Assembly: GCA_024230295.1 (NCBI GenBank)
Contig: JAAERN010000123.1
Coordinates: 1-57,340, forward strand
DNA length: 57,340 bases
Direction: 5' to 3'
Source of the DNA: Planctomycetota bacterium
GTDB lineage: Bacteria > Planctomycetota > Phycisphaerae > Phycisphaerales > SM1A02
In this document: piece after piece, positions 2-22,612 of the stretch
How the letters are laid out: every line of letters begins with the position of its first letter
Position numbering within the stretch: the stretch's first letter is position 1
Made by a program: the position numbers and the translations under genes
The notes under the pieces: generated by a model
What the model was told of the DNA's origin: nothing
Databases searched by the model: none
The model's input: the letters and a program-made list of their open reading frames with translations, nothing else

Positions 2-778
2 CTTGAAGCGGTCAGCGAGGCGGTCGGCCGGGCAACCGAGATGGGCAAGCCCGTCCTGTTCGTGCCGGGCATCCTCGACATCAACGATATTCAGACGGTG
101 GCCGGTATTACGGTTCTGGCCAACGTCGCCAAGACGGCGGCCCAGTACGACGCGCAACTCAAGGTGCCAACGGCCCGCTCGCTCGTGATGACCACGGCGC
201 GGGAAACGGTCGAGGCCGCCTACCTCGGCGAAGGTCGCCCCGACGCCTACAACGAAGACAACATTTACTACCTCACCGACGAGCAGTTTGGCTATACGGC
301 CGGCGTTCAGGGCGTGATGGTGCGAGAAGAACCCGCAGCCTGTTTCTACATGGGCGCGTTCTACGCCGAGTCGCTCATCCTTGCCGAGACGGCCAACTCG
401 ATCGGCGCCATTCAGGTGGCCGGTACGGCCATGCCGTCGCAGTTGCCATTCTTTGTGGCGGCCTGCGATTACACGCTCATCGGCGAGGAGTTCTTCGCCG
501 CGTCGGCCTATCTCTCGCATGACCCCGAACAACTCGGGTCGCTCAAGGGACAGGATGTCGGCAAGATCGTCGCCGCGGGATTGTTGGTTGTTGGCTGCAT
601 TCTGGCGACGCTGGCTGTGACCACAGACTGGCGGGGTGTGAAGATCGCCGAACTGTATATCTACGACAACATCCTCGGTAACGAAGGACTCGTCCCGAAC
701 GCAGACAAAGTGGCTGAGATCAATAGTGAACTCGAGTCGCTCGCCCAGCAACCTCATGGTGGGGGAGATGACTCATGA
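2..778 (+). CDS. Membrane-anchored protein resembling DUF6754, 5' truncated
   Basis: The frame is open to the left edge, so the N-terminus lies outside the window; an internal ATG at 41 is probably not the true start. About 258 residues are visible: a soluble alpha/beta-looking part, then one hydrophobic segment around nt 565-625 and a short hydrophilic tail ending in GGGDDS. It resembles the DUF6754 family by memory only; no catalytic motif is recognised. It is the first of four genes joined by overlaps or a 3-nt gap (ATGA overlap with the next), so the products probably form one membrane complex. Function unknown. Confidence 0.72.
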   Translation, partial: LEAVSEAVGRATEMGKPVLFVPGILDINDIQTVAGITVLANVAKTAAQYDAQLKVPTARSLVMTTARETVEAAYLGEGRPDAYNEDNIYYLTDEQFGYTAGVQGVMVREEPAACFYMGAFYAESLILAETANSIGAIQVAGTAMPSQLPFFVAACDYTLIGEEFFAASAYLSHDPEQLGSLKGQDVGKIVAAGLLVVGCILATLAVTTDWRGVKIAELYIYDNILGNEGLVPNADKVAEINSELESLAQQPHGGGDDS

Positions 779-20976: not shown

Positions 20977-21307
20977 GGTGGCGACTCCGTAAAGAAACAA
21001 GACCCGGGGCGGTCCCGAGCACGCGGCGTTGTGGGCCGAGTAACTCAGTGTGCGCCGATATTGACGGCAAGCGAAAGAAATCCAGCCGAAGACGGCGATC
21101 ACACCATCAATCCTGATAGGGTTCTGTTCGGGTCTATCTGGACTGTTCTTGCGTCCTCGGGGATCATTTGCAGGAAAAATGGCATGGAGTGTTGTGGTGT
21201 GGGGCAGAGTGGGGTAGTTTCCCATCCGATAGAGGTGAGGCTACCGATGCCTGAAACAACCAACTTCGATCGCATCGGCCAACAGGAACCGAACCGAGGA
21301 CACTCAA
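20977..21307. other. Intergenic region between a minus-strand flavin-protein gene and mraZ
   Basis: No gene is supported here; open frames crossing it have no domain. It holds the divergent control regions of the flavin-protein gene and mraZ, including the TGGGG repeats described separately. No confident sigma70 pair was seen. Confidence 0.6.
21200..21214 (+). promoter_or_regulatory. MraZ operator-like direct repeats
   Basis: TGGGG occurs at 21200-21204 and 21210-21214, a 10-bp period, 93 nt upstream of mraZ. MraZ of other bacteria binds repeated TGGGN units at this spacing in its own promoter. A third unit at 21190 is poor (TGTTG). The match is short, so the call rests on position before mraZ. 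Confidence 0.6.
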
Positions 21308-21787
21308 TTGCTATTCACTGGCGAGTACGAGCACACCATCGACGCGAAGTATCGGCTGGCAATCCCAGCCGAGATTCGTGCTGGTCTCGATGCAGCCAAG
21401 CACGGCACCGCGTTCTACGTGGCGCCTGGGACCACGGATACGCTCTGGCTCTGGCCGGAGAGGCTCTTCGAGCGGATGGCTCAAGCTTCAGAGGCTTCGC
21501 TGCTTCCGGACGAGGACTTGCTCGAATTCGAGGAACTGCTGTACTCACAGGCATCCCGAGTGGAAATCGACAAGTCGGGACGCATACGGCTCCCGGAACG
21601 ATTGGTGCGGCAGGCATCGCTGGGCTCGTCTGTAGTGCTTCTGGGAGTCAAAGACCATCTCGAACTTCGCGATCCCGAGCGATGGGCGCGGCAGCGAGAC
21701 GAAAAGCTGGCCAAGCAGGCCGAAATCATGATGAGGGCTCGCCGCGTTCTTCAGCGTGGCCGGTCCGATCAGAAGGGGGAACGATGA
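21308..21787 (+). CDS. mraZ: Transcriptional regulator MraZ
   Basis: A 159-residue DNA-binding protein with two AbrB-type repeats. The TTG start at 21308 gives MLFTGEYEHTIDAKYRLAIP, the family N-terminus; the second repeat is RVEIDKSGRIRLPERL (about residues 84-99). MraZ normally heads the dcw division and cell-wall operon and represses itself. Here no rsmH, ftsL or other dcw gene follows; a structured RNA-like region and then csrA (opposite strand) follow, so this copy is an orphan. Confidence 0.93.
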   Translation: MLFTGEYEHTIDAKYRLAIPAEIRAGLDAAKHGTAFYVAPGTTDTLWLWPERLFERMAQASEASLLPDEDLLEFEELLYSQASRVEIDKSGRIRLPERLVRQASLGSSVVLLGVKDHLELRDPERWARQRDEKLAKQAEIMMRARRVLQRGRSDQKGER

Positions 21788-21799
21788 CCCGGGTTCGTT

Positions 21800-22128
21800 T
21801 GCGTCGGGCTGACGGACGACTTGGACGGTACATAGGCGAGCGCTGCACGGACGCTTCTCGCCGCAGGTCAGGCCAAGGATGGCCAGCTTGACGGAGGGCG
21901 TCCGATCCGCCGACCGGAACCCGGCGGATCGGACGACTCCCGGTGTACCAGCGAGCCATGGACGGCTCGCGTAGGGCAGTGGCACGCACCACGCGGCACG
22001 GATAGCCGCGTGCCCTGCCTGCCCGCGGGCAAACGCCTGCGGTGGATCTTCATCGGTTCGCTTCAGAAGGCGGACCGACTCCTTCCCGGTTCGTGACGCG
22101 TCCCACCACGCGTCACGAACTTTTTTTT
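21800..22128 (+). ncRNA. Candidate CsrA-sequestering RNA (CsrB/RsmZ-like), uncharacterised
   Basis: No credible CDS occupies this stretch. It contains consecutive hairpins whose loops carry GGA: weak 21803-21820; 21835-21862 (GGCGAG/CTCGCC); 21871-21884 (GGCCA/TGGCC, AGGA tetraloop); 21899-21935 (14-bp perfect stem, loop ACCGGAACC); 21951-21970 (GCGAGCC/GGCTCGC, loop ATGGAC); 21990-22012 (CACGCGGC/GCCGCGTG, loop ACGGATA). Two more stems (22025-22040 and 22054-22077) lead to a terminator. Twelve GGA occur in 21781-22128 by eye; six are in the ANGGA form that CsrA binds. csrA lies 64 nt beyond, on the other strand. The 5' end and promoter are unknown; it may be processed from the mraZ transcript. 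Confidence 0.65.
22089..22128 (+). terminator. Strong intrinsic terminator
   Basis: A perfect 12-bp stem, GTTCGTGACGCG (22089-22100) with CGCGTCACGAAC (22109-22120), loop TCCCACCA, followed directly by eight T (22121-22128). The T-tract sets plus-strand polarity. It ends the candidate RNA and probably the mraZ transcript. Confidence 0.92.
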
Positions 22129-22191
22129 GTGCGCGGCCAAGCAGTAGGGCAGTAGAGCACCCTACGGACCGCTTCACGGCTTGCCAGTGCG

Positions 22192-22404
22192 CTACGCCCC
22201 TGGCTGAATTTTGCCTACTACATTCGGATTCTCTGCCAGAATCTGATCTGCAACTTCGCGGCGGTGTACTTCAACCTCTCGAGGGAAGTCCATCGCGAGC
22301 CGGACCCGATCTCCCTTGACTGATGCGATCCGAACGATTCCTACGGGATTGGCGGGATCACCAATCACGACCTCTTCGCCTTCCCGGCGTGTAATAACCA
22401 ACAT
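22192..22404 (-). CDS. csrA: Carbon storage regulator CsrA
   Basis: A 70-residue RNA-binding protein that binds GGA motifs in mRNA leaders and regulatory RNAs. The ATG at 22404 gives MLVITRREGEEVVIGD, the conserved N-terminus; an upstream extension to 22536 is not homologous. A good ribosome-binding site (GGAGGG) precedes it. It converges with the candidate GGA-loop RNA at 21800-22128, which makes functional pairing plausible. A NifU-domain gene lies about 210 nt upstream on the same strand. Confidence 0.93.
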   Translation of the reverse strand: MLVITRREGEEVVIGDPANPVGIVRIASVKGDRVRLAMDFPREVEVHRREVADQILAENPNVVGKIQPGA

Positions 22405-22612
22405 GCTCCGGCCCTCCTGCCGATATGTGCCGTCCTGACTTTGTTCGAGGCCCACCAGCGCTCGATCCACCATGACGCAGCGTACACCACACAGGGGCTC
22501 TGTCCAACCCTGACATTGAACTGGATACCAAGCCATCCCCTTTATGGCCCCATAATGGGGTTCAGCAATCAGGGAGCCGCTCAGAATGTGTCGCTGAGGG
22601 CCGCGGTGACCC

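Follow-up and report, generated by a model that had tools for sequence, protein, structure and literature searches.

Directly behind mraZ in an ocean planctomycete, a row of hairpins presents ANGGA loops on the mraZ strand and ends at an intrinsic terminator (Table 1). The row is real and conserved, and its assignment as a predicted CsrA-type binding array is strongly supported; that it serves as a decoy RNA soaking up CsrA, a so-called sponge, is probable, since its hairpins are shaped like CsrA sites and such rows are kept across the order. The locus lies in the 57,340-nucleotide stretch of DNA that was analyzed (hereafter, the window), and the genome encodes two CsrA proteins. In a preliminary description, the row was taken for a possible sponge RNA beside csrA. 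A csrA gene is indeed next door in the window, but the fixed neighbor of the array is mraZ, not csrA.

Table 1. Features of the mraZ-csrA2 locus, in window coordinates.
Feature	Position	Strand	Basis
mraZ promoter candidate, TTGTGG-17 nt-TAGTTT, the 17 nt including two TGGGG repeats of the MraZ-box type	21192..21220	+	sequence
mraZ	21308..21787	+	Pfam MraZ, 83.8 bits
Weak hairpin, hexaloop ACGGAC, interrupted stem	21835..21862	+	local fold
ANGGA hairpin, GGCCAAGGAUGGCC, perfect 5-bp stem	21871..21884	+	hairpin scans, fold
ACGGA outside local hairpins	21891..21895	+	sequence
14-bp hairpin with ACCGGAACC as its loop (not ANGGA, as GGA has no A at -2)	21899..21935	+	fold
ANGGA hairpin, hexaloop AUGGAC, perfect 7-bp stem	21951..21970	+	hairpin scans, fold
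ANGGA hairpin, loop ACGGAUA, perfect 8-bp stem	21990..22012	+	hairpin scan, fold
Intrinsic terminator, 14-pair stem (outermost pair G-U) and T8	22088..22128	+	terminator scan
csrA2, divergent CsrA paralogue (start codon position set by alignment)	22192..22404	-	Pfam CsrA, 52.4 bits
csrA2 leader hairpin CGGC-AGGAGG-GCCG, Shine-Dalgarno GGA in the loop	22409..22422	-	fold

The row begins just past the end of mraZ, which is the gene on the same strand. Positions 21788-22130 (343 nt) contain 12 GGA and six ANGGA, the same numbers that had been counted earlier in about 350 nt; shuffled sequences have on average 7.5 GGA (SD 2.0) and 1.26 ANGGA, and six ANGGA are reached in about 1 of 1000 shuffles. 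Under a hairpin rule that was set once (stem of at least 5 bp, loop of 3 to 9 nt) and also run in stricter and looser versions, three ANGGA-loop hairpins are found in this region against 0.083 expected, a number reached in 0 of 2000 shuffles, and none is found on its other strand. No other 350 nt of one strand in the 57-kb window has three such hairpins. The fold of 21750-22140, a check suggested in the preliminary description, was run and gave a z-score of -5.7. Six GGA-loop hairpins had originally been proposed, and four of them hold GGA in a clean loop. Among these, the perfect 14-bp stem was found as described, and its GGA loop is kept in eight of nine aligned rows of the genus; the hairpin at 21951 shows a double change from C-G to U-A in two of the nine. 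The hairpin at 21835 does carry GGA in a hexaloop and is weak, with a loop closed by 2 bp only (z -0.6), while the one at 21803 has to be given up because the local fold of 21800-21818 puts GGA inside the stem. The ANGGA at 21891 is single-stranded with respect to local hairpins, as had been stated. In the strict form of the scan (hexaloop ANGGAN on a stem of at least 4 bp), the window array amounts to two strict hexaloops plus one heptaloop, which is counted against the sponge model. The hairpin at 21990-22012, folded in isolation, reaches a z-score of -1.5 only.

In a search of 61 genomes, array DNA was found in the genome itself and in seven of the eight other members of the genus; the eighth (G003, 87% complete) has no array and no mraZ match either, and further matches are short and weak. 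Most hairpins are kept in the aligned rows of the genus. RNAalifold on nine rows finds 25 of 106 pairs changed on both sides in at least one row, with a small covariation term (-1.4 of -133 kcal/mol), so that support at the genus level comes chiefly from sequence conservation. Across the family, MraZ is encoded in 140 of 151 genomes at 141 places, 90 of which were read (family counts leave out the other 51), and a CsrA match follows 275-806 nt past the mraZ stop codon in 81 of the 90 loci; five of the other nine stop at a contig end. One mraZ-csrA spacer was taken from each genus with csrA in reach, giving 38 genera, in which csrA is convergent to mraZ in 31 and runs in the same direction in seven. 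Strict hexaloops in these spacers number 99 on the mraZ strand and 0 on the reverse strand, with 1.5 in shuffles (maximum 4); the loci are related by descent, so that the hairpins counted in them are not independent of one another. All 38 genera have one or more strict ANGGA hexaloops on the mraZ strand and 33 have two or more, which bears out the expectation, set beforehand, that GGA loops would be conserved in relatives in the neighborhood of csrA or mraZ. The scan under the original rule, looser than this form, finds 107 ANGGA hairpins in sense, two in antisense, and 4.8 in shuffles, and in it five genera have no more than a single hairpin. ANGGA hairpins occur at a density of 5.76 per kb in the spacers; the remainder of these loci has 0.30 per kb of one strand. 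Stems vary between genera; the ANGGA loops stay.

The family consensus of the loop, C-ANGGAY-G, has the published form of the high-affinity CsrA/RsmE site, a hexaloop ANGGAX set directly on a stem (PMC4005645; papers with PMC numbers are cited here from excerpts). When only GGA is imposed, 72% of cases have A at -2 and 73% have C at -3, compared with 16% and 31%, respectively, in shuffles and 7% and 33% on the reverse strand. The high-affinity motif of CsrA is also given as CANGGANG (PMC4894983), and the consensus from SELEX is RUACARGGAUGU (PMC7652899). Most of the SELEX winners have stems of four bp or fewer (PMC7652899); unlike these, many of the array stems in the family are longer than 4 bp, which is counted against the assignment.

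The terminator and its T8 run were identified on the strand on which they had been reported, with a longer stem, 14 pairs instead of 12 (stem 22088-22121, T run 22121-22128). There is a second, weaker terminator-like match upstream of mraZ. Past the final hairpin, a terminator is present in 25 of the 38 genera, and none was found in 12; all seven spacers with csrA2 beyond in the same direction have one, which is weak in one case. In the search of 61 genomes, its DNA was matched in two further genera. As a separate observation, the primary sequence of the stem at 22088-22121 is largely kept in five genera (g52, g53, g8, and g5 compared), which is more conservation than a terminator requires. 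Furthermore, its loop CCCACC (22102-22107, plus strand) and GGTGGG in the leader of csrA2 (22451-22456, minus strand) are complementary. Both motifs occur in 11 of the 38 genera and singly in 17 and 15, where about seven would be expected to have both if they were independent; this may reflect pairing between the RNAs or mere kinship within a clade.

Beyond the T run, csrA2 follows after 63 nt, close to the 64 nt reported earlier, and is convergent to the hairpin row. The adjacency holds, but csrA2 is on the minus strand and is therefore not downstream in the same transcript. The association of the array with one of its two neighbors can be read from families f2 to f6 of the order. Families f2, f3, f4, and f6 provide 22 genomes with a position for both genes, and in every one of them mraZ and csrA2 are separated by 20 kb or more or fall on different contigs. 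Behind mraZ, 26 loci of families f2-f6 have 50 hairpins in sense, two in antisense, and 4.2 in shuffles, with at least one in 22 loci. At 23 csrA2 loci of the families with separated genes, no comparable row was seen by eye (at most five scattered matches in 3.2 kb), and a NifU-like gene is near csrA2 in 20 of them; CsrA loci of family f3 were left out of the counts. Within the genus, G008 has csrA2 on another contig and its array still behind mraZ. As the row stays with mraZ where csrA2 is apart, and not with csrA2, the array belongs to mraZ, and its assignment as a csrA-linked element was rejected.

Outside its own order but within the class, the array is weaker. Among the mraZ places that were fetched, to which the class and phylum counts apply, 58 CsrA-bearing loci of other orders have 94 hairpins in sense, three in antisense, and 10.9 in shuffles, with at least one in 48 loci. 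Before the next long open frame, the figures are 63, two, and 6.3; the remainder, 25 of 88 in sense (one in antisense, 3.7 in shuffles), are in possible coding sequence. The 29 loci from the phylum's other classes are near background, with 10 hairpins in sense, three in antisense, and 6.3 in shuffles. Two loci of family f32 in another class (L292 and L305) have two ANGGA hairpins each behind mraZ; their genomes carry five CsrA matches, and this could be a separate case.

Upstream of mraZ, TTGNNN-16..18-TANNNT is found in 29 of 30 family loci (2.8 expected), and TGGG-N6-TGGG, which we take to be MraZ-binding repeats, in all 30 loci tested (0.9 expected), sitting between the TTG and TANNNT elements of the promoter. 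These repeats are found in 18 of 26 loci in families f2-f6 and in four of 27 in other orders. TTGNNN-TANNNT, a pattern derived from the family mraZ promoters themselves, was also looked for in the stretch that covers the final 150 nt of mraZ and continues up to the first hairpin, and it occurs there in 0 of 90 loci (0.9 expected). A scan for sigma-70-like promoters, one that does not pick up the mraZ promoter either, had no match in 21100-22600. The distance from the mraZ stop codon to the start of the first hairpin is 12-40 nt in 17 of 89 loci. Since the mraZ promoter pattern is the only one recognizable, the array more likely forms the 3′ portion of the mraZ transcript than a small RNA gene in its own right, and one transcript with mraZ and the array is the simplest reading. 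Control by GacA/UvrY acts through a box of the pattern TGTAAG-N6-CTTACA. Five matches to it with up to three mismatches in the window are at chance level and none is within 20 kb upstream of the array, so that a GacA/UvrY-controlled Csr RNA was rejected as a candidate.

The mraZ transcript would thus start at the promoter crossed by the MraZ-box repeats, presumably under the control of MraZ, run through mraZ, and end at the terminator near 22128, and its untranslated 3′ tail (~21788-22128) would fold into the hairpin row presenting ANGGA loops. CsrA dimers, in the family mainly the csrA2 product, would bind these loops and be held away from mRNAs of lower affinity. The dose of the sponge would follow mraZ transcription, or the sponge would be a cleaved 3′ fragment of the mraZ transcript. 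We consider it fairly likely that the 3′ tail titrates CsrA in this way, in the family chiefly the second CsrA, apart from the FliW-linked CsrA.

Alternatively, the array may be a CsrA target and not a sponge: CsrA would stabilize or destabilize mraZ mRNA and thereby control MraZ. That the array stays with mraZ where csrA2 is elsewhere, and that no separate promoter pattern is seen for it, would agree with such a role, which we nevertheless hold to be unlikely, because several high-affinity loops past a stop codon are an unusual arrangement for regulating translation; the repressive sites that have been described overlap the region where the ribosome binds (PMC7652899, PMC4894983). Besides, the two roles can coexist, as in Campylobacter, where flaA mRNA is both target and titrator of CsrA (PMC4894983). 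The array would likewise be a sponge if it were an independent small RNA gene of the CsrB/RsmZ kind, transcribed from a promoter that lies within mraZ or directly behind it. Its terminator and hairpin plan resemble RsmZ, a cleaved or separately started RNA of ~300 nt would look no different in sequence, and its promoter could be of another type. Such a gene is doubtful in view of the 0 of 90 promoter patterns before the first hairpin, the short distance of that hairpin from the stop codon in some loci, and the empty sigma-70-like scan, with the qualifications given above for both patterns. Chance or a DNA-level repeat (REP-like elements or structural palindromes), for which GC-rich palindromes are common enough in such genomes, is very improbable, because palindromes are strand-symmetric, yet 99 ANGGA loops are on one strand and 0 on the other, the loops are kept from genus to genus as their stems change, and the genome has a single array match.

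For a sponge carried by the mraZ transcript, the partner in the same genome would be one of two CsrA proteins. CsrA is encoded in 59 of 61 family genomes, in two or more copies in 46, and the one beside mraZ is the second paralogue, CsrA2. It has a four-residue insertion, in most aligned sequences a GKIRP-like tail, and Ile in place of Leu4, which is counted among the RNA-binding residues of CsrA; the equivalent of Arg44 and its region are kept, so that a CsrA with an RNA-binding residue is present in the genome. Arg44 contacts RNA in RsmE (PMC4005645). In its own leader, csrA2 has a hairpin with the Shine-Dalgarno sequence in the loop, and similar ones with AGGAG in the loop (GGGC-AGGAG-GTCC and variants) are found in 35 of the 38 genera; an SD-loop hairpin is present in 12 of 12 tested leaders versus 2.4 with shuffled flanks, the leaders being related and not independent. 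It is likely a site of CsrA autoregulation. FliW is encoded in the genome itself and in 112 of 151 family genomes. Canonical CsrA1 (at least 75 bits) is found in 47 of 61, each time on the same contig as FliW; a canonical CsrA beside FliW was observed at G000:C1:59313-59913 and likewise in relatives. In 13 of the 61 genomes, neither FliW nor CsrA1 was found, and 12 of these keep CsrA2.

The array is not tied to CsrA2 alone, since family f5 has no CsrA2 in nine of nine genomes, yet five hairpins in four loci; another CsrA may be its partner there. In other orders, CsrA was not found in six genomes of family f92, nor in G440 and G518. The six f92 genomes tested (bins 74-95% complete, from a single family) have zero hairpins, where only 1.3 would be expected from shuffles, and this is consistent with joint loss of CsrA and array in one family. 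G357 has no hairpins and only a degenerate CsrA match, yet G440 (87% complete) and G518 (76%) have three and five hairpins. Over 67 loci of other orders, the presence of CsrA is associated with hairpin count (one-sided Mann-Whitney p 0.012), kinship being uncorrected and G357 scored by hand as lacking CsrA despite its degenerate match at the family cut-off.

Several features of the Csr/Rsm class are found here, namely, several GGA motifs in hairpin loops, of the high-affinity ANGGA hexaloop type, and, in the window, an intrinsic terminator after the array. In RsmZ, A(N)GGAX is presented by several stem-loops whose stems are closed by C-G, and a rho-independent terminator follows (PMC4005645). 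The plan of CsrB, RsmY, and RsmZ invoked in the preliminary description thus fits best for RsmZ of Pseudomonas (relatives RsmX and RsmY), which shares the ANGGA stem-loops and the terminator, and less closely for CsrB. The planctomycete array differs from the RsmZ type in phylum, in its place behind mraZ, and in having no GacA-type box nearby, Rfam match at threshold, or recognized promoter of its own. CsrB of Escherichia coli is likewise a long RNA with many GGA loops (22 GGA in 369 nt), but the same scan (stem of at least 5 bp) finds 0 ANGGA hairpins and seven with GGA in it, whereas the array has ANGGA loops on longer stems. An Rfam search of the window returned no Csr family at gathering score, and in a permissive search of the array the best Csr-type match was RsmW (13.8 bits vs 52); membership in the CsrB, CsrC, and RsmX/Y/Z/W families was rejected for want of a match at threshold.

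The nearest precedent is flaA mRNA of Campylobacter jejuni, in which ANGGA hairpin loops titrate CsrA in a FliW-bearing species (PMC4894983). Both are ANGGA hairpins in species with FliW, carried by an mRNA in C. jejuni and, in the proposed model, by the mraZ transcript here; titration by the array is a prediction. The two loops of flaA are in its 5′ leader, where one covers the ribosome site, in contrast to a 3′ row behind a cell-division gene with a second CsrA. The family shares FliW and canonical CsrA1 on the same contig with the FliW-CsrA switch, and departs from it in the 13 genomes in which neither was found: of the 12 that keep CsrA2, all nine whose spacer was read (G009, G013, G035, G073, G074, G077, G078, G079, and G082) have at least one ANGGA hairpin.

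Csr antagonist RNAs have been described for Gammaproteobacteria, and many bacteria with CsrA have no homologues of them (PMC4894983); planctomycetes are among the phyla possibly using FliW instead (PMC4682653), and joint action of FliW and small RNAs on CsrA in any species was left open in PMC7652899. No description of a Csr sponge RNA in planctomycetes was found in the open-licence PMC literature, as excerpted, in agreement with what had been said at the outset. Sponge control of Csr has so far been known mainly from gammaproteobacteria. The array stands in an unexpected place and phylum, in a lineage that encodes FliW, two CsrA, and a candidate sponge together. The candidate decoy is located in an mRNA 3′ tail and would link the mraZ regulator to Csr control. 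In its widest form, a proposal to which we give about an even chance, the 3′ tail of mraZ mRNA in Phycisphaerae would be a conserved CsrA sponge that couples a cell-division transcript autoregulated by MraZ to the Csr system; in the family, it would serve CsrA2 apart from FliW-CsrA1, with RNA and protein antagonists side by side on two paralogues.
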